Below are positions 1,074 through 22,235 of a stretch of 33,161 nt of DNA, in pieces. The DNA is from Candidatus Poribacteria bacterium. Lineage in GTDB: Bacteria; Poribacteria; WGA-4E; WGA-3G. Every line of letters starts with the position of its first letter. Positions within the stretch are counted from its first letter, which is position 1. The stretch is from positions 20,247 through 53,407 of the forward strand of contig JAAXHI010000080.1 of assembly GCA_012270875.1 (NCBI GenBank). The letters run 5' to 3'. A program made the position numbers and the translations under genes. The notes beneath the pieces were generated by a model. The model worked only from the letters and a program-made list of their open reading frames with translations, was not told the DNA's origin and did no database searches.

Positions 1074-3497
1074 CTAAAAATCGCTGCTACCACAAAGTTC
1101 TCTGAGTGTAGCAACCCGTTTCGTCTCACCCGGAAGATAAGCCAAGATCATCCCATCAATCGGCAGACTTCGATCCGCGACAACACCCGTACTCCGTTCT
1201 GCTGTTAAACCCTTTGAGAGCAGCAGATAAAAAGTGTCTTTTGCCCAACCCGGAGTAGTGTAGAAATTTCCCTGCCCCTTAGAAATAACAAGATCGGTTT
1301 CCAACACCGCGTTCACAAATTCCGGTGTCGCCTGATAGAGATTCGTGCCGATCGTCTTCGCACCTGACGACATCAACTGGACGACACCTTCCCGAACGGC
1401 TTCCTGAAGTTTTTGAAATTGCGGGTAACCTATTATTTCGTGTAGATCGGCAAGCGTTACGTCGTTGCTGGCGTTATCCACTTTTCCTACCACAATTATC
1501 TGGTGTCCACGCTGCACAAGTTCCTGAATGAAGGCAATATCAAAAATCACTTCTCCGTCGTTATCAGCAAGCCAGAGGAGCTGCTGCGGCGCACCATTAA
1601 TCACCTTGTCATGGAACTGTTCATAACAATCAATAGCGAAAGGCGTTTCAACCGCTGCCCGCAATGCTTCAGAAAAGTAGTCAGGGTTCGCATTAAGTTT
1701 ATCGACAACCCGCGCACTACTATAATCAATAATATTTCCAGCGACGACCAACTTCAAACGCGTCAGCCAGTTATCTTCCCAAAAATCCGACAGCAAGGCG
1801 AGCGCGGTCTGTCGTGCCTTCAGTTTATCGCTGTGATAAGGGTTCAGGTTGCCGGTATGGAGACCTACCATTTCAAAGATACTTCCCCATAACTCTTCAG
1901 GCGTAAGGGTTTCAATCAGATAATCAGAATTTGCGCGTCGCAGATCCAAAAGTGTTCGGACAGCATCACACACGACCTGCTGTAAGTCCGCGTCGCTTGT
2001 CGCACGCGGAATAAGTTCCGCTGCACTATGCGATTGCACATGTTCCCGAAGGTTCTCCCAATCCGGCAATTCCTTCTTCTCTCCAAAAGTGAACACGCCG
2101 GGGATGTATTCCGGTGGCACGATCTGATCAAAAAGCCGCTTCGGTACCGCGGGCGGGGATTGTGCTGCTGGAACACCGAGCGTTTGATGCGTCAAAGCAA
2201 TACCTGACGGAATCACTGTCCCACGCGCAACAACTCCTAAAAGTTGAACACCATCACCTACGCTCACCGCATCGAATGTAGAATCCTTAATCGTACTCCG
2301 TGTAGCAAGTCCCCGCACAGGCTGCGACAATGTTTCAGGAAGTGGATTTGATTCAAAAGTCGTATCGTTCGCTGAGACATCTTGCAATCCGACGGCATCG
2401 CCTACCGTTGTTGCTCCAAGCAACGTCACATTTTCGAGCCTACAATAATCCCCGATCCGCACCTGCCCACCAAGATGCACCCTACCGATGAGATAACACG
2501 CCGTGCCAATTTCAATCTCATCACCCGCCAATGTTATCTGTGCGTTAGGATCGACGCGAACGCCTTTTCGCGCGAGTGAGTCCCGCGCCTGGGCATACAG
2601 TGCCGATTCACCCGATAGGACATTTGACCACCTGTTAACCCCGGATAACACCTTACCTTGATAGATAAAAGCATTTGTTTTCAACCCGTCTTCATAACAG
2701 TGCCGGATCAGATCGACATGGTGGCGTTCGTCGTTCCGATTCGCATGCGGTTCTAACCGATGTATCCGATCTAACAACGCGCTTTTCCGAATCAGTGTGA
2801 TACCTGTGTTCGTGTATGCCTCACCGCGGGGCAAGCGATCCCACATCTCCTGCTGTTCCGCTTCCGTCATGTCATACCACTCTTTCGTTCCCATAAGTCT
2901 CCCCTCAACATCAAAGAAGAGACCCCCTTTGTCTACAACCGTTTCAGGGATTTTCCCGCATAGCGTAACATCAGCGTCAGAGAGAAAATGGGAGAGCAAG
3001 GTCTGTGCGAAAATCTCGCGTTCTAAAAAGGGTTCATCACCGAACGCTACACCGATCCATTCAGCGTCGGAGTCTTGGAGGGCAGGCAATGCTGCTTGCA
3101 ACGCTCCACCTGTACCGTTCATCTCTTCTTGGATACAGGGAATCGCATCGGGTCCGAGCAGTTGCGCTGCAGAACCGCTTTCTTCAACACGCGCTGCCAT
3201 CTGTGGATTGATCACAACGATGTCAGGACGGTTGCCGGGCAGATAGCGTCGCGAGTGTTGGAGCATATTCTGTTCGCCGAACACGATGTCCAGTGTCTTA
3301 CTCAAGCGACCGGTGGGATCAATCCGCGTACCTTTACCAGCAGCAAGCACGACCCATTGCGGTGTGAGTTGGTGTTCAAGCGTATCTTCGGGAAGTGTAG
3401 TGAGAAAAGCTTCAAGGGCAGCCGTATCAGCAGAAATCGCAGCAAGTGTATCTTCTATTTCGCAACCGAGGAGATTTTCAAGGAGATGTGTTTTCAT
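1074..3497 (-). CDS. Nucleotidyltransferase / left-handed beta-helix / DUF89 fusion protein
   Basis: 807 residues. An N-terminal lead of ~47 residues precedes a GlmU-like sugar-1-phosphate nucleotidyltransferase domain: 'LAAGKGTR' at ~51-58, then 'GTGGA', 'GDEP' and a later 'NTGI'. Residues ~320-375 read as hexapeptide turns of a left-handed beta-helix ('IEIGTACYLIGRVHLGG'). From ~480 to the end the protein resembles DUF89 (ARMT1/damage-control phosphatase): 'NPYHSDKLKAR', a metal-site-like 'ADNDGEVIFD' at ~644, and 'SKGQGNF' at ~739. DUF89 enzymes are metal-dependent phosphatases acting on damaged or phosphorylated metabolites. One reading is a sugar-nucleotide synthase with a built-in sugar-phosphate phosphatase; that is inference. 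The ATG follows directly after the stop of an hsdM-like remnant (TAAATG). Domain calls are by eye; the DUF89 assignment is somewhat less sure than the nucleotidyltransferase. Confidence 0.75.
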   Translation of the reverse strand: MKTHLLENLLGCEIEDTLAAISADTAALEAFLTTLPEDTLEHQLTPQWVVLAAGKGTRIDPTGRLSKTLDIVFGEQNMLQHSRRYLPGNRPDIVVINPQMAARVEESGSAAQLLGPDAIPCIQEEMNGTGGALQAALPALQDSDAEWIGVAFGDEPFLEREIFAQTLLSHFLSDADVTLCGKIPETVVDKGGLFFDVEGRLMGTKEWYDMTEAEQQEMWDRLPRGEAYTNTGITLIRKSALLDRIHRLEPHANRNDERHHVDLIRHCYEDGLKTNAFIYQGKVLSGVNRWSNVLSGESALYAQARDSLARKGVRVDPNAQITLAGDEIEIGTACYLIGRVHLGGQVRIGDYCRLENVTLLGATTVGDAVGLQDVSANDTTFESNPLPETLSQPVRGLATRSTIKDSTFDAVSVGDGVQLLGVVARGTVIPSGIALTHQTLGVPAAQSPPAVPKRLFDQIVPPEYIPGVFTFGEKKELPDWENLREHVQSHSAAELIPRATSDADLQQVVCDAVRTLLDLRRANSDYLIETLTPEELWGSIFEMVGLHTGNLNPYHSDKLKARQTALALLSDFWEDNWLTRLKLVVAGNIIDYSSARVVDKLNANPDYFSEALRAAVETPFAIDCYEQFHDKVINGAPQQLLWLADNDGEVIFDIAFIQELVQRGHQIIVVGKVDNASNDVTLADLHEIIGYPQFQKLQEAVREGVVQLMSSGAKTIGTNLYQATPEFVNAVLETDLVISKGQGNFYTTPGWAKDTFYLLLSKGLTAERSTGVVADRSLPIDGMILAYLPGETKRVATLRELCGSSDF

Positions 3498-3597: not shown

Positions 3598-3990
3598 TTA
3601 GGTTTCTTCTGGCGGTATGATTACCAACTCACTTGCAAGCGCAAGTTTTCTCGCAATACGATCGCGTTCTTTCCTGTCTATTGGAAAAGGTGTAATATTG
3701 GCATGTAGTTCATGAGGTTGCGTGTCTGGGACGACCTCCAGGTTACTCTCATAAACGTCACCTATCAAAAGGTCTGCTCTCGCTTTCAACCTCCGTTTTT
3801 CTGTTTCAACATATCTCCGTCCAATTTCCCACACTTCGCTTTCAGATAGAGATGAGATACGGAACACTGATAAATCCGCGATATTGGGTGGAGGCATAAA
3901 TGCGCCATATTTGACTGTCTTGTTTTCTACGGAAAAATGTCTTTTAGAAAAAATGAAGCGAGTCAATTTCTCGCCTCCTGAATAATTCAT
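3598..3990 (-). CDS. Gene B', conserved unknown protein of the A-B pair
   Basis: 130 residues; function not recognised. It is a paralogue of the protein at 6051-6470, sharing in order 'GEKLTRFI', 'HFS', 'SVFRIS', 'EVWEIG/EIWELG', 'KARADLL', 'VYESNLEVVPD/VYDSNLELVPD', 'HANI' and a C-terminal 'KLA...LVI' helix. No signal peptide, membrane segment or familiar catalytic motif is visible. The frame stays open further upstream, but the ATG at 3990 is preferred: it aligns with the start of the paralogue, has an AAAGGA ribosome site just upstream, and lies 10 bases after the end of A'. The tight spacing means A' and B' are almost certainly co-transcribed. It is followed by the hsdM remnant. Confidence 0.75.
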   Translation of the reverse strand: MNYSGGEKLTRFIFSKRHFSVENKTVKYGAFMPPPNIADLSVFRISSLSESEVWEIGRRYVETEKRRLKARADLLIGDVYESNLEVVPDTQPHELHANITPFPIDRKERDRIARKLALASELVIIPPEET

Positions 3991-4000
3991 ACCATGTCCT

Positions 4001-4414
4001 TTATTCGAAGAGGCGAGCCAGCGTTGTAAGAAAACCCGGTAGGAAGGCAGCATCAGCCAAAGAACAAACACCCGAGATTTCCCGGTTTTTAGTAAAAAAA
4101 GCACCGTAGACGACAAGTCCATCGCCATAAAGGCTCATCGTTGCTATGCCGGCTCCAGGTCGCCATTCCAATCCAATGCCGCCATCTTCTAACCACATCA
4201 TGTCCGGCATTGGAATGTCACGAGGCATTTGTTCCAGGAAAGAAAAGGTTTCCTCGTATGCCGATTCCGGTACACGATAAACATCTTCAGCTACTGCACA
4301 GGTTTCCTCAACTTCCTGACGGATTTCGTCTAATTCGCGTTGAATATGTTTCCTAAACAGCACCTTGTCCGCTGGAGGTCTAGAAAATTCAAGCTCGTTT
4401 TGTAAAGTCGCCAT
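4001..4414 (-). CDS. Gene A', unknown protein with a TIGR04255-like leader
   Basis: 137 residues; function not recognised. From ~residue 22 on it is a paralogue of the proteins at 6485-7039 and 14106-14507: 'IRQE', 'RVPESAY', 'FLE', 'PMPDMMWLEDGGIGLEW' and the most conserved block 'YGDGLVVYGAFF', ending in a helical 'FLTTLARLF'. Its first ~20 residues ('LEFSRPPADKVL') instead resemble the start of the TIGR04255-like protein at 7039-7854 ('LDFAKPPVDEVV'), and the upstream DNA is also similar to that gene's. It therefore looks like a chimera left by an internal deletion. It is 138 bp downstream of hsdM and 10 bp upstream of B'. Confidence 0.75.
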   Translation of the reverse strand: MATLQNELEFSRPPADKVLFRKHIQRELDEIRQEVEETCAVAEDVYRVPESAYEETFSFLEQMPRDIPMPDMMWLEDGGIGLEWRPGAGIATMSLYGDGLVVYGAFFTKNREISGVCSLADAAFLPGFLTTLARLFE

Positions 4415-4552: not shown

Positions 4553-6019
4553 TTAATCATCCCCGTCTAATTTTGCTTGGATGTTCTGAAATTGGGCTAA
4601 CGCAGCTTCCAAATTCTCAGTGATTTCTGCCACTAATACATCTGGGGTAGGAAGGTCTGCTGCATCCTCAAGCGACCCATCTTTTAGATAGAAGATGTCA
4701 AGATTGACATGCTCACGTTCAATAAGTTCATCGTAACTAAAGGCGCGGAACCTCTCTGTTTCAACCCGATCCTCGCGATTGTCTGGGTTATAGACGGTGA
4801 TAAAATCTTGCAGGTCGGTATCTGTCAATGGATTTGTTTTGAGTGTAAAGTTTTTATTTGTCCGTAGATCGTAAATCCAGAGTTTCTGGGTCCAAGGTTC
4901 TTCGCGTGCTGGTCGCTTGTCAAAAAAGAGCACATTCGCCTTGACCCCTTGGGCGTAAAAGATACCGGTCGGCAATCGCAAGAGGGTATGGGCATCAAAT
5001 TGTTTAAGGAGCTGCTGGCGAATCGTTTCCCCCGCGCCGCGTTCAAAGAGTACATTGTCGGGAAGGACGACAGCGGCGCGTCCGTCCGTTTTCAGAATAG
5101 TTTTGATGTGTTGCAGGAAGTTGAACTGTTTATTTGAGGTCGTCGCCCAGAAATCGTCGCGCTCATAAGTGAGTGCGGCATTGTTTCTTTTACTGCCATC
5201 AGCGGCGATGGTAATACTGCTTCTATTCCCAAAGGGTGGATTTGTCAGGACTATGTCGTAACGATCCCCTGTGTCTCGACTGAGGCTATCGTCGGTTGTA
5301 ATTGGACTCTCCGTTCCACCGATACCGTGCAGGTATAGATTCATCACACAGAGGCGGACAACGTTATCGACGATGTCTGTTCCAGCGAAGGTGCTAAATC
5401 TAAGGAATTCTTTCTGTTCGCGGGGCATCGTGCTGCCGTAATTTTCGGAAATGTAGTCGTGTGCCGCGAGAAAGAAACCACCGGTGCCACATGCTGGATC
5501 ACAGATAGTTTGCATCGGTTCGGGACGCATCACGGTAACCATCGCCTTGATGAGGGGGCGCGGTGTGAAGTATTGACCGGCGCCGCTTTTCGTATCTTCG
5601 GCGTTTTTCTGTAGGAGCCCTTCGTAGATCGTACCTTTGATGTCGGCAGTCATCCCGCTCCAGTTCTCGGCGTTGATGAGATGGATAAGCCGTTGCAGAT
5701 TCGCAGGGGTCTGGATGCGGTTCTGCGATTTTCGGAAGATTACACCGAGTAAACCTTGCGCATGACTCAGTTCTTGGAGGATTTTGACATATTGTGTTTC
5801 TAACTCGGCACCACTCTCTTGGAGAAGGCTTTCCCAATCCAAGCCAGTCGGAATTGCTGAAGGTTTCTTATGAGGCGGTTTGGTCTGTTCGTCAGCGAGT
5901 TTGAGGAACAGCAGATAGGTGAGTTGTTCTACATAATCCCCGTAACTGACCCCATCATCTCGGAGGACGTTACAGAAATTCCAGAGTTTTTGGACAATTG
6001 TCGCGGATTCGTTAGACAT
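4553..6019 (-). CDS. hsdM: Type I restriction-modification DNA methyltransferase subunit
   Basis: 488 residues, the usual length for HsdM. An N-terminal helical domain ('LWNFCNVLRDDGVSYGDYVEQLTYLLFLK') is followed by 'GAGQYFTPRPLI' (motif X region, ~147), SAM-binding motif I 'DPACGTGG' (~174-181), and the N6-adenine catalytic motif IV 'NPPF' (~260-263), then 'RAAVVLPDNVLFERG'. It methylates adenine at the recognition site set by HsdS, and partners HsdR for restriction. All key motifs are intact, so it should be active. It lies 31 bp after gene B and is separated from hsdS by four small genes, an unusual order. The start is the first ATG before the conserved N-terminal helix. Confidence 0.95.
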   Translation of the reverse strand: MSNESATIVQKLWNFCNVLRDDGVSYGDYVEQLTYLLFLKLADEQTKPPHKKPSAIPTGLDWESLLQESGAELETQYVKILQELSHAQGLLGVIFRKSQNRIQTPANLQRLIHLINAENWSGMTADIKGTIYEGLLQKNAEDTKSGAGQYFTPRPLIKAMVTVMRPEPMQTICDPACGTGGFFLAAHDYISENYGSTMPREQKEFLRFSTFAGTDIVDNVVRLCVMNLYLHGIGGTESPITTDDSLSRDTGDRYDIVLTNPPFGNRSSITIAADGSKRNNAALTYERDDFWATTSNKQFNFLQHIKTILKTDGRAAVVLPDNVLFERGAGETIRQQLLKQFDAHTLLRLPTGIFYAQGVKANVLFFDKRPAREEPWTQKLWIYDLRTNKNFTLKTNPLTDTDLQDFITVYNPDNREDRVETERFRAFSYDELIEREHVNLDIFYLKDGSLEDAADLPTPDVLVAEITENLEAALAQFQNIQAKLDGDD

Positions 6020-6050
6020 AAATTTATCTCAATTCAGTTAAGGATTGGAA

Positions 6051-6470
6051 TCAATTCTCTTCAGAAGGTATAACCAATTTACTAAGGTTGGCAAGTTTGG
6101 TGGCAAGGGCTCGGCGCGTTTTTCTATTTGCAGGGCTATTATCTACTGGAAGGGATCTGATATTCGCATGCCTTTCGGGTGGTTCGTCTGGAACCAATTC
6201 AAGATTGCTATCATAAACGTTGCTCGCCAAAAGATCAGCTCTTGCTTTTATAGCCCTATCTTCTGTTTGGACATGTTCCTGCCCAAGTTCCCATATCTCG
6301 TTTTCTGAGAGTTCTTCACTGTCATTGAGTGCTGAAATGCGAAACACAGATACATCAATACTTCTTTTATGTGGGAGAAAAGCATCAGGTTTAACTCTGT
6401 TAGCCTCAATGGAAAAATGACTGCCATAACGAATAAAACGGGTGAGTTTCTCACCCGGTGGAACATTCAT
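6051..6470 (-). CDS. Gene B, conserved unknown protein of the T-A-B set
   Basis: 139 residues; function not recognised. Paralogue of the protein at 3598-3990, with the same run of motifs ('GEKLTRFI', 'HFS', 'DVSVFRIS', 'EIWELG', 'KARADLL', 'VYDSNLELVPD', 'HANI'). It has a short insertion before 'EIWELG'. The C-terminal third is basic and helical. No transmembrane segment or nuclease-like motif is seen. The ATG at 6470 lies 14 bases after gene A ends, with AAGGAT upstream, so A and B are probably translated together. hsdM follows 31 bases downstream. The repeated pairing with A is the strongest clue that the two proteins act together. Confidence 0.75.
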   Translation of the reverse strand: MNVPPGEKLTRFIRYGSHFSIEANRVKPDAFLPHKRSIDVSVFRISALNDSEELSENEIWELGQEHVQTEDRAIKARADLLASNVYDSNLELVPDEPPERHANIRSLPVDNSPANRKTRRALATKLANLSKLVIPSEEN

Positions 6471-6484
6471 AACTATAATCCTTA

Positions 6485-7039
6485 TTACATGAGGATATTT
6501 GTCAACATTTTGAGAAAACCCGACAACATTGGCGTATCTGATAATGCACAGATGCCTTCAAATTGACGTTTTTCTTCAAAGAAGGCATTATAGATAACAA
6601 GATCGTCTCCATATACCCCAATTATTACGGTCCCCTCTTCTGGGTACCATCCGAGCGTAAGACTACCATCTTCAGCCCAACTCAGCTCCGGCATAGGAGT
6701 ACCAAAGTGGAAAAATACTTCTAAGAGAAAGAGAGCGTCATCGTATGCAGATTCAGGGACGCGGTCAATTTCGTTATCCACAGCAAAGGCTTCCTTGGCC
6801 TCTTGTCGAATTTTTCCTAACTGCTTGTGTGATTCATCCAGCCAAAACAAATATGGGTTGGCGACAGAGAAAGAGTTGACTACGTCCCCTTCATAGACTA
6901 TTGGAGGATTATACTCGTAAGTTTGCAGTCCGGTATTATAGGATGTTGACAGCGAAGGATTAGGGCTTGCCATGAATTCTGCCTCCATTCTGTTTTGATA
7001 TCCTTGGTAACCTATACCCAAATTCTTGTGTTTAATCAT
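6485..7039 (-). CDS. Gene A, conserved unknown protein of the T-A-B set
   Basis: 184 residues from the ATG at 7039; function not recognised. An upstream GTG-type start (7054) is possible but less likely, because the ATG overlaps the stop of the preceding TIGR04255-like gene as TAATG, a typical coupling arrangement. The first ~65 residues are unique to this copy and rich in Asn, Tyr and Ser. The rest matches the A family: 'IRQEAKEAFAV', 'RVPESAYDDALFLLE', 'PMPELSWAEDGSLTLGW', 'GVYGDDLVIYNAFF', and a hydrophobic C-terminal helix. The acidic 'WAEDG' turn and the 'YGDDLVIYNAF' strand look like a small beta-sheet domain; this is inference. Confidence 0.75.
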   Translation of the reverse strand: MIKHKNLGIGYQGYQNRMEAEFMASPNPSLSTSYNTGLQTYEYNPPIVYEGDVVNSFSVANPYLFWLDESHKQLGKIRQEAKEAFAVDNEIDRVPESAYDDALFLLEVFFHFGTPMPELSWAEDGSLTLGWYPEEGTVIIGVYGDDLVIYNAFFEEKRQFEGICALSDTPMLSGFLKMLTNILM

Positions 7040-7854
7040 TATTTGCGTCCCCATATCTGTGTTTGAATATCCTCTGTGAACATATTGACGAATTTTTCTC
7101 GAATTTGGTCGCGTGCTGCTTTAAACCACATTTCCATCGGAAGTGCCGTGTTTTCTGGAAGACCACGCATTGTAAAATCTGTCTGCAACGTATGTAATTG
7201 CTCGGGCATCTTTACACGGTTGCTGATGGCAAGATGCAAACGGCCTGGCAAATCGTGAATTGGGAATGAGGTGCGAAAAATCACCAACTCTGCTCCCTCC
7301 CAAAATAAATCGGATTTTTGAGAATCAATAAACATATTATAGATTTTTCCTACATCATTAAGAGTATTCCAACCCTCACCGTGCCTAAGCTGATCGATGT
7401 AGGTTAACTCGTATTGCGATGGAGTCACCGAACCGATTGCCAAACTTTTTATAATTTCGCCAAAGCGTTCATAAAAACCTTCAAAATTTTCAAAGATTGC
7501 TGAGAATCCCGGATATTTCTGGTTTGAATCGGTTCTACGCCAATTGAATGTAAACCGATCCCGTTGCACTTGCAAAATTTGGCTATCATCTTCATGGATA
7601 AACCAAATTCGAGCGAGCGGAGGAAGATTGCTAATTTCAAATTTAGCCTCATCACCCTCGTTAGGTAATATATCAATTGTAGGATTAACAGGAGGCTGCT
7701 CTAGGATTCGCACGAACCCATCTTGCTTAAATTCCTGCCAGATTTCACCAAGATGCGGGGCAAGGAATTTATTAAGAGGTTTGAACAAAACGCTCAACAC
7801 CACTTCATCTACTGGAGGTTTTGCGAAATCAAGTTTCTTTTTCGGGGAATCCAT
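7039..7854 (-). CDS. TIGR04255-like family protein (gene T)
   Basis: 271 residues. The opening 'LDFAKPPVDEVVLSVLFKPL', the following 'LGEIWQEFKQDGF', the central 'SNLPPLARIWFIHEDDSQILQVQRDRFTFNWRR' and the later 'YELTYIDQL' follow the pattern of the TIGR04255 family, a sporadically distributed bacterial family without an assigned function. The name is from memory of the family pattern and was not checked by search. It is probably cytoplasmic, with no signal peptide or membrane helix. Its stop overlaps the start of gene A by one base. It starts 124 bp after the UPF0175 gene, and that gap holds sequence also found upstream of A', so T-A-B(-hsdM) may have its own promoter. Confidence 0.7.
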   Translation of the reverse strand: MDSPKKKLDFAKPPVDEVVLSVLFKPLNKFLAPHLGEIWQEFKQDGFVRILEQPPVNPTIDILPNEGDEAKFEISNLPPLARIWFIHEDDSQILQVQRDRFTFNWRRTDSNQKYPGFSAIFENFEGFYERFGEIIKSLAIGSVTPSQYELTYIDQLRHGEGWNTLNDVGKIYNMFIDSQKSDLFWEGAELVIFRTSFPIHDLPGRLHLAISNRVKMPEQLHTLQTDFTMRGLPENTALPMEMWFKAARDQIREKFVNMFTEDIQTQIWGRK

Positions 7855-7947
7855 AATGTACTACCTATCAAATTTTAATATTAATTTTACTACTTTTTCG
7901 TATATTTATATTTTAACACAGATCTTCATCAAACGCAATAATCATTT
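7851..7947 (-). repeat. Upstream block shared with A' (copy 2)
   Basis: Counterpart of 4411-4500, covering the start region and ~95 bases upstream of the TIGR04255-like gene. Shared anchors are CCATAATGT, ACCTATC.AAATTT, ATATTTTA and CAATAAT.ATTT. Identity between anchors is low, so the duplication is old or only the anchors are under selection. Confidence 0.55.
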
Positions 7948-7978
7948 CAAATAACTAATCTAACAACTCATAACAGTA

Positions 7979-8269
7979 TTATAACTTCAATTCATCGAAA
8001 TCTTTTAACGCGCTTTTGACTTCAGCGTCTAAGGCTTCTGTTGTGAGACTGTCGTTAAAAGGAGAAATACCAGCTTCATACATCAGATCCGAGAGATCCC
8101 ACCACGAAATGTTGAGAAGCCGTGCCGCTCTACCAGCACTGATGTCACCTTGGCGTAGGAGTTCAAGCACAAAAGCCTCCTTCGCCTTGTGCTCAGCATC
8201 AGTTTTGTGTTTCAGTAAAACCTCATCAAGAGGTAATGTAAATCGGACTTCAAGTTCTGTTTTTGCCAT
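7979..8269 (-). CDS. UPF0175 family small protein (antitoxin-like)
   Basis: 96 residues. The core 'KAKEAFVLELLRQGDISAGRAARLLNISWWDLSDLMYEAGI' is the helix-turn-helix signature of UPF0175, a family usually found as the antitoxin-like partner of a PIN-domain (DUF3368) protein. The N-terminus ('LEVRFTLPLDEVLL') would be the short beta strand region. Here no PIN-domain gene is present on either side: hsdS ends 14 bases upstream and a TIGR04255-like gene follows. It may therefore be an orphan antitoxin or a regulator of the island. The start ATG at 8269 has a GAGGTGAG ribosome site just upstream. Confidence 0.8.
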   Translation of the reverse strand: MAKTELEVRFTLPLDEVLLKHKTDAEHKAKEAFVLELLRQGDISAGRAARLLNISWWDLSDLMYEAGISPFNDSLTTEALDAEVKSALKDFDELKL

Positions 8270-8283
8270 AAACTCACCTCGTG

Positions 8284-9723
8284 TTATTCATCTAATTTTA
8301 CGGTTTGGAAGCCCAAGTCTAAGGACAATTGCTTTGCCGAAGGTGTTGTTTTCACTTTTGTTGTCTTCTTTTTTTGTTTGTGTTGCTGAGGTTCTTTTTT
8401 CTTCCGAATTTTCTCCAATAGAACGCTTGCCTGTTCATCGTTCGGGTCTTGCGGGACAAGTTTGCCAGAAAATGCTTGTTTAAGGATAGACTGCCGCAAA
8501 CGCTCCGCGCGTTTAAGTTCGGCATCAAGGGTTGTTTCTATTTCATCAGCGACTGAAAGGTGTCGTTCAAGTTCAAAAACGATCTGTTCTTGTTCTGGAA
8601 GCGATGGGATTGGAACGGTAACTTTTAGTGGAAAATTACGAGAAATTCCACCAACAGTAGCCCCGCGAAAATCTGAGAGAATTTGTTGCTGCCCTTTGCT
8701 GCTAAAGAGATAATAAAACACGTATTTAGGAAAAGCCACTTTTGGGTCTACCCTCACAATAAACAAATGTTCATTAATTGCAGCATATTTATGCGGAAAA
8801 TGGCTGTCAACAAAACTGGTTTTTCCGGTTGTGGCACCATCTTTCACAACAATAATATCATTTGGATAAATAATTCCCTTGTTCAGTGATTCAAAATACG
8901 CTTCAGGAATGTATTTTATTTTTTTAAAGTTAAAACCACCGTCGGCGTTTAAATGCTCACCTCCAAGACTGGGTATTCCTTCAAGGATACCCCGGACTCC
9001 ACCCTTTGGGCGCGAACCACTCTCAAGCGTAATGAATTCATTCAGATTCATACTTTTCCAACTGTCTGAATACGCATCTCGCCACTCTTTTGTCAACTCC
9101 CCTTCAAAAGCAGCTTTGAGGATTGATTGACGATACCGATGCAACTGTACTTGTGCTTTTTTGAGGCTATCAACTGCTGCGTCTAATTGTGTAAACAACA
9201 CCTCTAATTTGACTACGATACGGTGCTGTTCTGCCAGCGGCGGAAGCGGAATTTCCAAATCGGCAAGTACTTCTGCACCTAATCGTAGTCTTCCTGTTGT
9301 GCCTTTCATTTTCGCAGTAAGCAAAGCTCGGACATCAGGAAGTAACAAATAAAAAAAAAGATAGAATTTATCACTGACACCTTCAACTTCACGAATTGGA
9401 ATTACTTCAGTTGTCGCAATGCCAAATGGTGTTGGCAATTCTTGAATGATACACTGTTTCCCATTTTCAAAAGAGGGTGTAATTTTTGCCAAAAGAATAT
9501 CCCCCGGTTCAAAGTACGTTCCGCTGCTGAGTGTGTTTGATGGTTTGCGTATAAATTCTTTTGAAAATAACGTGGCAATTGGAATCAAGTTCATCGGCAC
9601 AAACGGGACTTCGTTATACTCTGAATATCGTAAGCCTTTTGGTTTCTTGGTAAACGTAGCAACCTCCTCAAATCTCACAATTCGCCAATTCAGAGGCAAA
9701 TCCATTGGATTGATTTTACTCAT
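8284..9723 (-). CDS. hsdS: Type I restriction-modification specificity subunit
   Basis: 479 residues with two target-recognition domains (about 10-160 and 222-372), each followed by the conserved helical spacer: 'LPPLAEQHRIV' to 'YRQSILKAAFEGELT' (~160-211) and 'IPSLPEQEQIVFELE' to 'LRQSILKQAFSGKLVP' (~372-424). The internal repeat is the hallmark of HsdS, which reads a bipartite DNA sequence and holds two HsdM subunits. The last ~45 residues are a lysine- and glutamine-rich tail ending 'SLDLGF'. It begins 11 bases after the AlbA-type gene ends and is followed by the UPF0175 gene after 14 bases, so these form one operon. Both recognition domains look complete. Confidence 0.95.
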   Translation of the reverse strand: MSKINPMDLPLNWRIVRFEEVATFTKKPKGLRYSEYNEVPFVPMNLIPIATLFSKEFIRKPSNTLSSGTYFEPGDILLAKITPSFENGKQCIIQELPTPFGIATTEVIPIREVEGVSDKFYLFFYLLLPDVRALLTAKMKGTTGRLRLGAEVLADLEIPLPPLAEQHRIVVKLEVLFTQLDAAVDSLKKAQVQLHRYRQSILKAAFEGELTKEWRDAYSDSWKSMNLNEFITLESGSRPKGGVRGILEGIPSLGGEHLNADGGFNFKKIKYIPEAYFESLNKGIIYPNDIIVVKDGATTGKTSFVDSHFPHKYAAINEHLFIVRVDPKVAFPKYVFYYLFSSKGQQQILSDFRGATVGGISRNFPLKVTVPIPSLPEQEQIVFELERHLSVADEIETTLDAELKRAERLRQSILKQAFSGKLVPQDPNDEQASVLLEKIRKKKEPQQHKQKKKTTKVKTTPSAKQLSLDLGFQTVKLDE

Positions 9724-9734
9724 CTGTTTCCTTT

Positions 9735-11135
9735 TTATTGGATTTTAGCGAGACGTTCGCCGATGGAACGCAGTGCTTTTTTGACGCTGCCCTGTTCAGG
9801 CGGTGTTTCGGGTTTGGATGTAGTGGTGTAAGCGGCGTGTGGTGCTAATCGTTCCTCAAAGTGATTATAGAGTGTGACGCTGGTATGTTGAGAGGTTTCA
9901 TAATTGGGTGCCGGTAGACCGAGGTTTTCCATTTCTTGACGCATCTTCCTTGTACCTTCACTTAAAGCACGCACCAGAGATTCACCGCGTTCATCTTTCA
10001 TAAAGCGCATCCAATCAACAATTTTCTGATTTCGCAGCACGGAACTCAGGACTGTATCCGCAAGACTAAAGTGCCTTGGGACTTCTTGAGGGATGCCACC
10101 TGGATTTTCCACGACCAGACCATTTCGGTACGCGATACAGTGAATCGCTGTGGTAGCCCCATAGTCTCTATGAATAATAGCGTTCACCACTGCCTCATCA
10201 ACCGCCAAGAGTGGATATTCAGGGTCTTCAATGAACCCTCCGTTGGAACTTCGTCTTATCATCGTCCGAAAAAGTGCGGAATCTCTGAAAAAGGTTCGTA
10301 GTTTACGGATAATGTTTGGAAGTGGTCCGTAGAAATCTTTATCAAAGGTCGTCGCGCCACGGGCCCCTGACTCCTCAACGTCAACTTCAAAACGTAAAAC
10401 TCGAACATGCGCACTTGGAAAGTGCTTACGCGGATTTGAAGCAAAAAAGAGGTAACCGGCATTGGTAAAAACACACTTTTCACCCTCTATTTGCCTAATG
10501 GCATCTATATTTAACAGAAGTGCCTCTGTGCTATATTCATATTGGGCATCTCTTGTCTCAAGGAACACACTTTTGAATTCTTCAACTACCTCTTTATCAA
10601 GTTCATCGGGATCGTAGGGACAGCAGTAGGACGTTTCAAAATCAACGATCTTTTTATCACGTTTAAGTTGTTCACGATCTTGTTCAGTCAACGGGAGACA
10701 CTGTGCACCAAACCTTTTCCAGGTTTTTGGGAAATCTGCGAAGGTTTCACAAATCCCATTGGGTGTCCACGGAGTGTAAAGAAGATGTAGCCTTGTTTCG
10801 TTTGAAGTCGGCAGTACGACTTCTTTTAACTGTGTTGCGTGGTTACTTAAATCTCGTGCCACTTGCAGTATTCCGTTAAGTGTCTGTTCATCAACATGCT
10901 GTGTGCCTTTAATGGTTCCGTCATCCGCAATGCCAAGTATTAATAGACCACCTGCTCTGTTGCTATTCGCGAAAGCAGAAATACACTGTTTGATCTTGTC
11001 CTTCAGTGTGTTGATTTGATTGCTGGTATCGATCCGAACCTCTTTACGTTCAAAATACTGCCCTTCAAAATCAGCAGCCTGAAGGAAATCAAGGTACTGT
11101 AGAGGATTATCAAAAACCTCTTTTGGCGTTGGCAT
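9735..11135 (-). CDS. AlbA/Schlafen-type ATP-binding protein of the RM island
   Basis: 466 residues. The N-terminus is an AlbA_2 (Schlafen-like) domain: 'FEGQYFERKEV', then 'CISAFANSNRAGGLLILGIADDGTIKG' at ~51-77. Residues ~300-350 contain a GHKL-like ATPase half-site, 'DEAVVNAIIHRDYG' (~313-326) and 'NPGG' (~344-347), as in the RecG-C/HATPase_c_4 group. Proteins of this build are annotated as putative transcriptional regulators or ATP-dependent RNA/DNA-binding proteins and are frequent passengers in type I RM loci. Its role there is not settled. It is the first gene of the second transcription unit (AlbA-hsdS-...), after a 490-bp gap from hsdR. The start ATG at 11135 precedes 'MPTPKEVFDNPLQYLDFL'. 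Confidence 0.85.
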   Translation of the reverse strand: MPTPKEVFDNPLQYLDFLQAADFEGQYFERKEVRIDTSNQINTLKDKIKQCISAFANSNRAGGLLILGIADDGTIKGTQHVDEQTLNGILQVARDLSNHATQLKEVVLPTSNETRLHLLYTPWTPNGICETFADFPKTWKRFGAQCLPLTEQDREQLKRDKKIVDFETSYCCPYDPDELDKEVVEEFKSVFLETRDAQYEYSTEALLLNIDAIRQIEGEKCVFTNAGYLFFASNPRKHFPSAHVRVLRFEVDVEESGARGATTFDKDFYGPLPNIIRKLRTFFRDSALFRTMIRRSSNGGFIEDPEYPLLAVDEAVVNAIIHRDYGATTAIHCIAYRNGLVVENPGGIPQEVPRHFSLADTVLSSVLRNQKIVDWMRFMKDERGESLVRALSEGTRKMRQEMENLGLPAPNYETSQHTSVTLYNHFEERLAPHAAYTTTSKPETPPEQGSVKKALRSIGERLAKIQ

Positions 11136-11156
11136 TTATGCATTCCTCTTTGTCAT

Positions 11157-11267
11157 ATTTTATAGTAGATTCTGTAATTATTTATACACTTAGTACCGGT
11201 TCGGTTAGGAAACCGAACCTACCAGGGGGTGGAAGTGTATATTTATTTTTGGAATTTACTATAAAAT
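11157..11267. mobile_element. MITE-like element with 16-bp inverted ends
   Basis: A 111-bp palindromic element. Left end 11157-11172 (ATTTTATAGTAGATTC) and right end 11252-11267 are inverted copies with one mismatch; the arms continue imperfectly to ATACACTT / AAGTGTAT. Its centre is the perfect 9-bp hairpin at 11198-11219. It codes for nothing. It lies just upstream of the AlbA-type gene, so it may carry or disturb that operon's promoter. No clear target duplication is visible beyond AT-rich flanks. Confidence 0.65.
11198..11219. repeat. GGTTCGGTT-AGGA-AACCGAACC hairpin
   Basis: Perfect 9-bp stem with a 4-base loop at the centre of the 11157-11267 element. A second, variant copy lies at 32714-32735 in the opposite orientation (loop TCCT), with one stem pair changed on both sides. 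Confidence 0.85.
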
Positions 11268-11408
11268 TGGAGCAAATCATAAGACCTTTGACGGAAAATC
11301 ATTATAAAGTTTAACACAAAACTGACTTGAGATGCAACCCTCTTAATCGCGACGGGTGTGTAAATATTTTGTCAGAAGTTTAGGTTGAGCGAGTAGAAAG
11401 GAGGAGGG

Positions 11409-11528
11409 ATGAAAAATGGGTCGCCTGGGAGGCACGCGATTGTATACCGTAGCAGTGGCATGTTTATATGTGTCTCAAGGAAATGGCATTTTTTCAGAGT
11501 ATTCAGAGTAAATCGTGAAATTCGATAA
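11409..11528 (+). CDS. Possible 39-residue basic peptide
   Basis: A short frame in the hsdR-AlbA gap, opposite in strand to every gene of the island. An ATG follows AGGAGG with a 4-base spacing, a strong but slightly close ribosome site. The predicted peptide is basic with a few hydrophobic stretches ('GMFICVS', 'WHFFRVF'). The family is not recognised, and the frame could easily be chance. It is listed only because of the ribosome site. Confidence 0.2.
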   Translation: MKNGSPGRHAIVYRSSGMFICVSRKWHFFRVFRVNREIR

Positions 11529-11622
11529 ATTTTGAAATGGTTGTTAACCTATACGGTGAGTGGCTTCTGTGTGTTTTTCTGCAATGCTGCTGAAAAGTTT
11601 ACTCTGAAAATTGCTCTGAAAA
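11491..11622. repeat. Inverted CAGAGTA / TACTCTG arms beside hsdR
   Basis: Arms TTTTCAGAGTATTCAGAG.. (11491-11512) and its imperfect inverse (11598-11622) enclose ~85 bases and stop 2 bases before the hsdR stop codon. Each arm contains two CAGAG-type boxes. This could be a small transposed element or a regulatory palindrome. Taken with 11157-11267 and the possible short frame, it accounts for most of the 490-bp gene-free gap; nothing else was recognised there. Confidence 0.5.
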
Positions 11623-11624
11623 TT

Positions 11625-14048
11625 TCAGACTAATTTTTTTGTGAGAGATTTTAGCATGTTATCTAACGCATCACCGAAAAGTTGGTACACTTTCGCTCCG
11701 TTTCCAAGTTCTGCGAAAGGTGTGTATTCAAAATCGGACATCCGAATATCGAGTGAAGTGGCAATATGGTCACGTATCATTTCAAGCCATTTATGTTGTT
11801 CTGCGTTAAAATCTTTATCGGTTATCCATTCTTCAAAGTTTCGGTTGACAGTTGCACTGAACGGCTCCAGAAAAAGAGTATACCCCATCGCAAACCGGAC
11901 GAGCGATATGAGGTCTGTACGTTGCTCGGTCCCTCCTCGAACGCTCTCTGGTGACCGTCTTTTGTAAGCCAACCATAACGACTCGCGACTCAGACTTTTT
12001 GAATGTTGCTGTAAGGCTGCTTCTAACGCTTTCAGGTTGTCTTCAGTCAGTACACCTTGCGCTTCTGGCACTCCACAAAGGATTTGCAATGCTAACAATT
12101 CACCCGCGTTTTGATTAATAAAATCTTTAAAGGCGTGAATGACTGTCGTCACCTGCGTGAAACTTCGATCGTCAAAACCGGTTTCAATAACTTGATCTTC
12201 GCTTACATCATCAATCAACTGGTTGGGGTCTCTTGGTGGTGCTCCGTTTGGCTCAGGAGGCGTGGATGGATCACCCGGAAGTGCTTGTGAATCGGTTTTG
12301 ATGGATTCATAGACACCGACAGCATCAACAATGATGAAATGGGTTTTCGCCTCTGCATCACCAGTAACAGCACGCAGATCCTCTGGGTTGATAGTACGCA
12401 CGCCGCGCCCGATCATCTGCTCAAAGTAGCCACTGGATCGGACTGCCCGCATAAAAACTAAACACTCAAGCGGCTTTATATCAGTGCCGGTAGAAATCAT
12501 ATCAACACTTACTGCGATCCGTGGGTTTAATTGTGTGCGAAATCTTCTGATGAGTTCCTCCGGTTTATCACTCCGATACGTAATCTTCTGACAAAATTCG
12601 TCACCTTTAGCGAATACTTCTCGAACAGTCCGAACAATATCCTCGGCATGTGAATCGTCTTTCGCAAAGATAAGCGTTTTGGGAACAGTTTTCCCACTTC
12701 GACTTGGAAAAAGTTTTGTAAAGAGAATATCCTTGAAAGTTTGAACAACTGTACGAATTTGGTCTGTGGCGACAAAATCCCGATCCAACTGGTTTTCCGT
12801 GTATTCAACATCAGCGTCTAACTCGTCCCAATGGAGTCGTCGGGTTTCCCTATCTCGTCTTGCTACATAATTACCCGCGGCAACTGTGCTGCCGTTTTGC
12901 GTAATTTCGGTTTCAATCTTATAAACGTAGTAACCCACGTTTACATTGTCTTCAATAGCCTGTTCGTGGCGGTATTCATGGACAAGATTCTGATTGAAAA
13001 AATTGCGTGTTTGTCCATACGGGGTCGCGGTGAGTCCGATAATGAAAGCGTCAAAGTATTCTAATACGTGTCGCCATTTACCGTAGATAGAGCGGTGACA
13101 TTCATCAACGATGATAAGGTCAAACGTATCAATGGGGATATTTTGGTTATAGATGACTTGTTGCGGGGTTGTATCCTCTGCTTCTTTTTCAAAAGTGGAA
13201 CCTTCCTCATCATCTTCGGATTCAAAGTCCGATTCGCCTTTTAGCATTGAATAGAGACGTTGGATAGTGGTAATACAGACAACACTTGCTTCGTCAATAA
13301 TGTTACTCGAAAGATGTTGAACGTTGTAGAGATCCGTAAATTTTCTGCCATCATCGGGAGTTGTGTAAGACTGAAATTCACGAAGGGTTTGTCTACCGAG
13401 ATTATTCCGGTCTACCAGAAAGAGAACGCGTCTGACTTGGGCAAACTTAATGAGTCGGTACACACTACTTACAGCGAGATACGTTTTTCCGCTACCGGTT
13501 GCCATCTGGATTAAGGCACGTGGACGCGCTTCTTTCAAAGAATCTTCAAGGTTGTTTATTGCCTCAAACTGGCAGTCCCAGAGAATGCCTTTTTCTAACT
13601 TAGGTAAATCATCCTTAAGCCTTTGACGAAGGGTCCTAGGAGGGAGCGCACCCCTGAGCGCATCTGGTGTATGAAATGTAAACACTGGTCGAGAACGGGA
13701 GTTTGGGTCGCGCTTATCCTGAAAATAGGTCTCAATGCCGGTTGAGGCATATAAAAAGGGACACCCCTGCAGTGTTAACAAGGTGTCTGGGAAACTGGAG
13801 CGATACCGTTCTGCTTGTTGAAGGGCACCACCAAGCGTCACGCCTTCTTTTTTGGCTTCTATTACACCAACTGCAACCCCATTAATAAAAAGAAGGTAAT
13901 CCGCGCTCTGATCATCTTGCAAGGGATATTCGCGTACGGCAACGCCAAGTGCAGCATCTATATCATGTTCAGCATAATTTTGGATATGCCATCCCGCTGC
14001 TTCAAGCATTTTATCCATATTGCGTCTGGCTCTTTGTTCAGGAGTCAT
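11625..14048 (-). CDS. hsdR: Type I restriction endonuclease motor/nuclease subunit
   Basis: 807 residues, close to EcoEI-type (type IB) HsdR. The nuclease domain has a PD-(D/E)xK pattern: Asp at ~50 ('SADYLLF') and 'VIEAKKE' with E64 and K66. The helicase motor has Walker A 'ATGSGKT' (~183-189), the DECH box (~315-318), 'TATPYG' (~340) and the later 'GTDI' and 'QMIGRGVR' motifs. The C-terminal ~170 residues form the domain that joins HsdM/HsdS. An acidic insert ('SDFESEDDEEGS', ~273) precedes the DECH box. The protein cuts unmethylated DNA after translocation. It follows gene A'' by 57 bp on the same strand and is separated from the rest of the island by a repeat-filled gap. Confidence 0.95.
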   Translation of the reverse strand: MTPEQRARRNMDKMLEAAGWHIQNYAEHDIDAALGVAVREYPLQDDQSADYLLFINGVAVGVIEAKKEGVTLGGALQQAERYRSSFPDTLLTLQGCPFLYASTGIETYFQDKRDPNSRSRPVFTFHTPDALRGALPPRTLRQRLKDDLPKLEKGILWDCQFEAINNLEDSLKEARPRALIQMATGSGKTYLAVSSVYRLIKFAQVRRVLFLVDRNNLGRQTLREFQSYTTPDDGRKFTDLYNVQHLSSNIIDEASVVCITTIQRLYSMLKGESDFESEDDEEGSTFEKEAEDTTPQQVIYNQNIPIDTFDLIIVDECHRSIYGKWRHVLEYFDAFIIGLTATPYGQTRNFFNQNLVHEYRHEQAIEDNVNVGYYVYKIETEITQNGSTVAAGNYVARRDRETRRLHWDELDADVEYTENQLDRDFVATDQIRTVVQTFKDILFTKLFPSRSGKTVPKTLIFAKDDSHAEDIVRTVREVFAKGDEFCQKITYRSDKPEELIRRFRTQLNPRIAVSVDMISTGTDIKPLECLVFMRAVRSSGYFEQMIGRGVRTINPEDLRAVTGDAEAKTHFIIVDAVGVYESIKTDSQALPGDPSTPPEPNGAPPRDPNQLIDDVSEDQVIETGFDDRSFTQVTTVIHAFKDFINQNAGELLALQILCGVPEAQGVLTEDNLKALEAALQQHSKSLSRESLWLAYKRRSPESVRGGTEQRTDLISLVRFAMGYTLFLEPFSATVNRNFEEWITDKDFNAEQHKWLEMIRDHIATSLDIRMSDFEYTPFAELGNGAKVYQLFGDALDNMLKSLTKKLV

Positions 14049-18558: not shown

Positions 18559-20379
18559 ATGAACCAATCAGCGGGTGAGATCCGCTCTATTCTTGCTACG
18601 GATTGTGGCAGCACAACGACGAAAGCAATCTTAATTGAGAAACGGGATGACGAGTATCAACTGGTCGTACGCGGTGAAGCACCGACGACTGTTGAAACAC
18701 CCGTTGAAGATGTAACCGCAGGCGTGATCAACGCTATCACCGAAGTCGAGGAACTCGCAGGTCGCAAACTCCTTGATGATGGGGTCATCATAAAACCGCA
18801 AAACGGCGACGCAGGTGTTGACATCTATATTTCGACGAGTAGTGCGGGGGGTGGACTCCAGATGATGGTCGCCGGTGTTGTCCGTAATCTCACAGGAGAA
18901 AGCGCAGAACGTGCTGCCCTCGGGGCAGGGGCAATTGTCATGGATGTCATCGCCTCTAACGACAAACGCCTCCCCCACGAGAAAATTGAACGTATCCGAC
19001 ATCTCCGTCCAGATATGTTACTCCTCTCCGGAGGCGTTGATGGCGGAACGACTTCACACGTCGTTGAATTAGCGGAGATTATCGCCGCTGCACGTCCGAG
19101 ACCACGGCTCGGTATCGCTTACGAACTCCCGATTATCTACGCTGGAAATGTAGATGCCCGCGACTCGATTCAGGAACGCTTGCAAGAGGTCATGGCACTA
19201 CAGATGGTGGACAACCTCCGCCCCGTTTTGGAACGTGAAAACCTGATGCCGACACGCCACAAAATTCAGGAGCAGTTCCTTGAGCATGTCATGGCGCATG
19301 CACCCGGCTACAAGCGACTCATCGACTGGACAGACGCGCCGATCATGCCGACCCCCGGGGCTGTCGGTGAGATTATCCAGACCGTCTCTGAACAACAGGA
19401 TATTGAAGTGGTGGGGGTGGACATCGGCGGTGCAACGACAGATGTCTTTTCTGTTTTCAAAAATAAGGAAGCAGAACCGATCTTCAACCGTACCGTCAGT
19501 GCGAATCTCGGTATGAGTTACAGTGTCTCGAATGTCCTCGCTGAAGCCGGTTTAGAAAACGTGCTACGGTGGGTACCGTTTGATATTGAAGTGGGTGACC
19601 TCCGAAATCGAGTCAAAAACAAGATGATCCGTCCGACGACGATCCCGCAAACCTTGCAAGAATTGGTACTGGAACAGGCGATTGCACGTGAGGCACTCCG
19701 ACTCGCTTTTGAACAGCATAAGCAGCTTGCCGTTGAGTTACGCGGCGTGCAACAACAGCGGACGATCTCTGAAGCATTTGATCAGACGGAGAGCGGTCAG
19801 ACGCTCGTTAATATGCTCGCTTTGGATATGCTCGTCGGGAGTGGTGGTGTTTTATCGCACGCACCCCGTCGGCAGCAAGCGATGCTCATGATGATAGATG
19901 CCTTCCAACCCGAAGGTATAACCCATCTTGCTGTTGACAGTATCTTCATGATGCCTCAACTCGGTGTGCTCGCACAGGTCAACCCTGAAGCCGCAACGCA
20001 TGTCTTTGAACGAGACTGTCTCATCCATCTTGGCACCTCTATTGTACCGGTTGGAGTCGGAAATACCGGAGACGAGTGTCTCATCATCGAGATCAGCGGT
20101 GAAGGTATATCGCCAATGAATGAAAATATCCAGTTCGGCGAACTCCGCCGCTATCCGCTGCCTCTCGGTGAAAAGGCGACACTCAAACTCCAACCCTCAC
20201 GTCGGTTCGATCTCGGTGCTGGAAACGGAAACCCCGTTGAAACGGAAGTGATCGGTGGTGTCGTCGGTTTAGTTGTTGATACCCGCGGCAGACCCCTTAA
20301 AATTTCAACGGATCCCGAATTGCGCGTCGCGCAGCTCACGAAATGGCATACTGCTTTAGAGACCTATCCATCACTCTAA
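18559..20379 (+). CDS. GlmL/MutL family actin-like ATPase
   Basis: 606 residues. It resembles the glutamate mutase accessory protein GlmL (MutL): a phosphate-1 loop 'ATDCGSTTTKAIL' near the start, 'ISTSSAGGGLQMMVAGVV' (~93), 'LLLSGGVDGGTT', 'YAGNVDARD', and a phosphate-2 loop 'VGVDIGGATTDVFSVF' (~290-305). The C-terminal part has 'LIHLGTSIVPVG'. Family members are thought to reactivate adenosylcobalamin-dependent mutases. No mutase subunit gene lies in this window, so the client is unknown and the annotation is by family only. The upstream isomerase is 50 bp away on the same strand, and groEL follows with its own promoter. AAGAGG precedes the ATG. Confidence 0.85.
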   Translation: MNQSAGEIRSILATDCGSTTTKAILIEKRDDEYQLVVRGEAPTTVETPVEDVTAGVINAITEVEELAGRKLLDDGVIIKPQNGDAGVDIYISTSSAGGGLQMMVAGVVRNLTGESAERAALGAGAIVMDVIASNDKRLPHEKIERIRHLRPDMLLLSGGVDGGTTSHVVELAEIIAAARPRPRLGIAYELPIIYAGNVDARDSIQERLQEVMALQMVDNLRPVLERENLMPTRHKIQEQFLEHVMAHAPGYKRLIDWTDAPIMPTPGAVGEIIQTVSEQQDIEVVGVDIGGATTDVFSVFKNKEAEPIFNRTVSANLGMSYSVSNVLAEAGLENVLRWVPFDIEVGDLRNRVKNKMIRPTTIPQTLQELVLEQAIAREALRLAFEQHKQLAVELRGVQQQRTISEAFDQTESGQTLVNMLALDMLVGSGGVLSHAPRRQQAMLMMIDAFQPEGITHLAVDSIFMMPQLGVLAQVNPEAATHVFERDCLIHLGTSIVPVGVGNTGDECLIIEISGEGISPMNENIQFGELRRYPLPLGEKATLKLQPSRRFDLGAGNGNPVETEVIGGVVGLVVDTRGRPLKISTDPELRVAQLTKWHTALETYPSL

Positions 20380-20582: not shown

Positions 20583-22235
<1,653 letters not shown>

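Follow-up and report, generated by a model that had tools for sequence, protein, structure and literature searches.

Within the 33,161-nucleotide stretch of a Candidatus Poribacteria contig analysed here (the window; JAAXHI010000080.1, positions 20,247 to 53,407), one reading frame appears to join a nucleotidyltransferase of the type that makes sugar nucleotides to a phosphatase of the DUF89 family. This raises two questions: whether the two belong to a single gene, and what a sugar-nucleotide enzyme would do with a phosphatase attached to it. An initial annotation, made from the DNA letters only, had read the frame as a nucleotidyltransferase and beta-helix joined to DUF89, and had suggested either a self-policing sugar-nucleotide enzyme or a two-step path through a sugar 1-phosphate. 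We examined the frame by profile, structure and residue comparison, by its distribution and neighbours across the phylum, and against the genes known for UDP-GlcNAc synthesis.

A single gene with two enzyme halves

The frame has an ATG start and 807 codons with no internal stop, and encodes a nucleotidyltransferase of the GlmU type, followed by a short beta-helix and then by a complete phosphatase domain of the DUF89/ARMT1-like family. Its features, all on the reverse strand, are as follows.

1074..3497 (-), complete fusion ORF of 807 aa (P0001); intact, with the single frame preserved in about 74 genomes of the phylum
3363..3497 (-), helical extension at the N-terminus, residues 1-45, of low conservation (AlphaFold2 helices; distant members 16-33% identical)
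2583..3362 (-), GlmU-type nucleotidyltransferase domain, residues 46-305, with K67, Q123, D154, E206, N230 and N288 conserved throughout (Pfam/NCBIfam, PDB sequences, Foldseek, residue counts)
3030..3041 (-), nucleotidyltransferase metal motif GDEP, residues 153-156; D154 is the equivalent of GlmU D105 (PDB sequence alignment, residue counts)
2178..2582 (-), short left-handed beta-helix-like region, residues 306-440, lacking the GlmU acetyltransferase part (GlmU model alignment; pLDDT 34-83)
1077..2072 (-), DUF89/ARMT1-like damage-control phosphatase domain, residues 476-807 (Pfam 8.2e-32; PH1575 6.7e-13 and At2g17340 2.8e-11; Foldseek PH1575 TMt 0.79)
1551..1571 (-), DUF89 metal-site motif LADNDGE, residues 643-649, with D645 and N646 (aligned with PH1575 ITDNVGE and At2g17340 FVDNSG; D645 in 67/69)
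1455..1466 (-), DUF89 motif NDVT, residues 678-681, with D679 as second catalytic Asp (aligned with PH1575 NDAT; D679 in 68/69)
1266..1280 (-), DUF89 motif KGQGN, residues 740-744 (aligned with PH1575 KGQGN; K740 in 67/69)

The fusion is a genuine single gene. Median dN/dS among close pairs was 0.07 for the transferase, 0.13 for the beta-helix and 0.09 for DUF89, and the low values in both halves indicate purifying selection on the nucleotidyltransferase and on the DUF89 domain. A missed frameshift, of which the initial annotation had been wary, or an assembly error merging two neighbouring genes can be dismissed, since the same frame recurs in the roughly 74 genomes, on one contig in several of them, and nothing was found in favour of such an artefact.

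Both halves were recognised by profile searches, as the initial annotation had proposed to check, and by predicted structure. In the first half Pfam placed NTP_transf_3 at residues 49-178 (E = 1.4e-9) and NTP_transferase at 49-253 (8.7e-6), with a weak hexapeptide signal (0.021), and the best NCBIfam match was GlmU (aligned at 49-367, 6.6e-23), at 81 bits against the 367 of the GlmU equivalog cut-off (TIGR01173). An AlphaFold2 model built on an alignment of 36 homologues had a mean pLDDT of 84, with the beta-helix region alone modelled poorly. When this model was searched with Foldseek, GlmU came first (2.5e-20, against 4.5e-12 for the next nucleotidyltransferase type) and DUF89 structures came behind the bulk of the GlmU structures, well before other nucleotidyltransferases. 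By sequence, the solved structures matched were likewise GlmU and the DUF89 proteins PH1575, At2g17340 and AF1104. Fusion residues E206, N230 and N288, aligned with the functional residues E154, N169 and N227 of GlmU, are conserved in all 69 homologues. Those corresponding to GlmU K25, Q76 and D105, which are required in that enzyme (PMC10128056), are K67, Q123 and D154, conserved in the 69 homologues with one gap at K67. The beta-helix of the initial annotation is present but short, and because the GlmU model alignment stops at position 308 of 452, the fusion lacks the C-terminal helix of GlmU that bears the acetyltransferase active site.

The second half matched Pfam ARMT1-like/DUF89 (PF01937) at residues 540-746, scoring 111 bits where 25 is required (8.2e-32), and Foldseek placed it in the DUF89 fold (PH1575, 7.7e-16, TM 0.79 by target length). 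Its best NCBIfam match was a damage-control phosphatase, at 77.5 bits against the 440 of the equivalog cut-off (NF040824). The string ADNDGE, earlier picked out as a metal site, occupies residues 644-649 and indeed aligns with the DUF89 metal-site motif of PH1575 and At2g17340. D645, N646, D679 and the KGQGN motif are present in 67-68 of the 69 homologues. D645 and D679, the two catalytic metal-site aspartates, occupy the motif positions of the two PANK4 aspartates whose mutation abolishes phosphatase activity (PMC9352595). To judge from these motifs, the DUF89 site of the fusion is likely active.

Two lineages depart from this pattern. In G051 and G052 the DUF89 half lacks D645, N646 and K740 and is shortened by about 100 aligned positions; the transferase half is intact and 58-65% identical to the window's protein. 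This decay suggests that the phosphatase half may be a helpful rather than an obligatory step. As a separate observation, these two lineages, G051 (L114) and G052 (L156:266-2653), carry a protein of ∼795 aa that combines a galactokinase-like GHMP kinase with a GlmU-type nucleotidyltransferase and is 51% identical between the two genomes; in G052 this gene comes after a NagB-like gene.

Distribution and gene neighbourhood

All named relatives belong to Candidatus Poribacteria. The contig scan used the fusion's own peptides, by which distant homologues would be missed, so any restriction to this phylum is provisional. Within the phylum 79 of 85 genomes gave a match. In G061 the matching protein is a DUF89 standing alone; the other 78 comprise about 74 with both halves in a single frame and four with fragments at contig ends. 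The fusion is missing from five class genomes, one of them 96% complete. Plasmid records held either half on its own and never both together, and we found no GlmU-DUF89 fusion in the open-access literature searched. Around the phylum's stand-alone DUF89 genes, the neighbouring genes form no coherent pathway.

Six relatives at class level, which represent two families, have yvcK/glmR directly adjoining the fusion, typically with a 4-bp overlap (G050, G052, G054, G057, G058 and G059). Next beyond it in several relatives is Arch_GlmM, a phosphoglucosamine mutase above its equivalog cut-off, with GlgC beyond in some, and on the opposite flank of the fusion there is a NagB-like gene in G050, G054, G056, G057 and G058. 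In the window's own family the fusion lies outside the amino-sugar cluster, without a conserved operon, and often has a convergent AMP-ligase-like gene beside it; Arch_GlmM and YvcK occur together at another locus of the window's own genome (L159).

Other genes of the window were noted in passing. Type I restriction-modification genes lie at 4553-14048 (-), namely HsdM at 4553-6019, HsdS at 8284-9723 and HsdR at 11625-14048; between them lie genes for small unassigned proteins and for a TIGR04255 protein (7039-7854). The small proteins at 3598-4128, 4001-4414, 6051-6470 and 6485-7054 (-) have no NCBIfam match, and several fall in neighbour clusters that recur in the genus; in congeners, relatives of the small genes and of TIGR04255 recur next to the fusion, sometimes without the restriction-modification genes. 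Further along, a GlmL-like gene of the methylaspartate mutase accessory family (18559-20379, +) adjoins a GroEL gene with a His-containing tail (20598-22235, +).

UDP-GlcNAc supply and the proposed function

UDP-GlcNAc is a cell-wall precursor, and MurA was found in all 17 genomes sampled, the window's own among them. Among the same 17, canonical GlmU was found in none, and GlmS was not found in 16; the single GlmS-bearing genome (G044, L153) is also the only one without a NagB-like protein. This suggests that GlmS is replaced by GlcNAc salvage or by NagB acting in reverse. Given the precedent of Akkermansia, which lacks GlmS, needs GlcNAc and has a NagB that does not reverse under physiological conditions (PMC5902328), either route could apply in Poribacteria. 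Searches for a eukaryotic-type UDPGP/UAP (PF01704) gave zero matches, and the controls were silent too. The outgroup genomes G060 and G061 have MurA and lack the fusion, YvcK, GlmS and canonical GlmU; another nucleotidyltransferase can evidently serve UDP-GlcNAc supply there.

We tentatively favour, at somewhat short of even chances, the reading that the fusion is a monofunctional GlcNAc-1-P uridyltransferase with a tethered DUF89 phosphatase for clean-up or overflow braking, in which the two activities, the choice of sugar and the substrate of the phosphatase are predictions. The first half would convert UTP and GlcNAc-1-P to UDP-GlcNAc, as does the N-terminal half of GlmU, without the acetyltransferase, the loss of which would make sense if the GlcNAc phosphate supplied were acetylated already. 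The second half would hydrolyse damaged or surplus sugar phosphates around the uridyl-transfer step, and so might restrain the making of cell-wall precursors in the way that PANK4's DUF89 domain restrains CoA synthesis. Known DUF89 substrates make this a natural proposal: yeast DUF89 enzymes and human ARMT1 act on fructose-1-P (PMC8669784), and the PANK4 domain acts on 4'-phosphopantetheine and its oxidised forms (PMC9352595). The gene neighbours in class relatives and the conserved residues point to UDP-GlcNAc as the candidate product. Against it, the GlmU equivalog cut-off is missed widely, and an archaeal-type GlmU-like (Arch_glmU) protein or YvcK could make UDP-GlcNAc; because of these two competing makers, and because both activities are predicted, our confidence is limited. 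The lack of the fusion in five class genomes and in G060 and G061, and its place away from the amino-sugar genes in the window's family, also weigh against this reading. Of the ideas in the initial annotation, the self-policing enzyme fits best, with its activities predicted.

The competing makers underlie a rival reading that we consider somewhat unlikely, in which the nucleotidyltransferase half takes a different sugar 1-phosphate, UDP-GlcNAc comes from the Arch_glmU-like protein or YvcK/GlmR, and DUF89 cleans up for another pathway. Of 85 genomes, 64 encode an Arch_glmU-like protein that is full-length and includes a beta-helix; it scores 209 bits, where the cut-off is 292. YvcK/GlmR of Firmicutes binds and makes UDP-GlcNAc, the synthesis having been observed for GlmR in vitro (PMC10128056), and poribacterial YvcK retains the SDDGG motif. 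That the fusion lies apart from the amino-sugar genes in the window's family also accords with another sugar. However, the operon is an amino-sugar cluster in two families, the residues of the GlmU sugar site do not vary, and the closest fold is GlmU. The Arch_glmU-like protein was not detected in genus g5 and several other lineages, and 18 class genomes have the fusion without it and, where tested, without canonical GlmU. Joint absence of the fusion and Arch_glmU, in 1 of 83 class genomes, is about what chance would give, and complementarity was not used as evidence.

The alternative of two-step synthesis, also raised by the initial annotation, has a parallel in GmhB and HddC, the phosphatase and nucleotidyltransferase pair of nucleotide-heptose synthesis, and pairs of like logic exist in known pathways. 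DUF89 would dephosphorylate a sugar bisphosphate (or the product), and the transferase would activate the resulting sugar 1-phosphate. Intact sites in both halves of most lineages agree with this, but no sugar kinase was seen beside the fusion, and an apparently dead phosphatase half next to an intact transferase half in G051 and G052 argues against an obligatory hydrolysis. The scheme has no specific support, and we judge it improbable.

The same decayed halves would fit a non-catalytic DUF89 module, for oligomerisation or for regulation by ligand sensing. We give this slightly less credence still, as the complete metal site and KGQGN in 67 of 69 homologues, and the median dN/dS of 0.09 in that half, speak for a catalytic role.

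Comparison with known systems

A conserved fusion of this kind would bring a DUF89 phosphatase into amino-sugar nucleotide metabolism, and it bears on UDP-GlcNAc synthesis in an uncultured, sponge-associated symbiont phylum that has MurA, lacks canonical GlmU and mostly lacks GlmS. GlmU is the bifunctional GlcN-1-P acetyltransferase and GlcNAc-1-P uridyltransferase. The fusion shares with it the N-terminal nucleotidyltransferase fold, the catalytic and sugar-site residues and a beta-helix behind them, but lacks the acetyltransferase region, carries an added C-terminal DUF89 domain, and is only about 20% identical, below the equivalog cut-off. Archaeal-type GlmU (TIGR03992) also combines a sugar-1-P nucleotidyltransferase with a beta-helix, whereas its helix is of the full acetyltransferase type, it has no DUF89, and it is a separate gene, present in most Poribacteria. 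With the DUF89/ARMT1-like phosphatases PH1575, AF1104 and At2g17340 the fusion has in common the fold and the motifs DN-GE, ND-T and KGQGN; unlike such stand-alone enzymes, its DUF89 domain sits behind a nucleotidyltransferase and misses the NCBIfam equivalog cut-off.

A parallel in design is PANK4, in which a DUF89 phosphatase is likewise tethered to an enzyme-family domain of a cofactor or nucleotide pathway, and where the pantothenate kinase-DUF89 fusion was an earlier clue to function, leading to a role in the CoA pathway (PMC4921024, PMC9352595). The N-terminal domains and pathways are unrelated, with no pantothenate kinase Pfam match in the fusion, and in amniote PANK4 the dead half is the kinase, whereas in some poribacterial lineages the phosphatase has decayed. 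It is conceivable, though we hold the idea loosely, that the fusion is a prokaryotic counterpart of PANK4, in which the uridyltransferase's DUF89 domain would drain or repair amino-sugar phosphates and so set cell-wall precursor flux in a phylum without canonical GlmU and mostly without GlmS.
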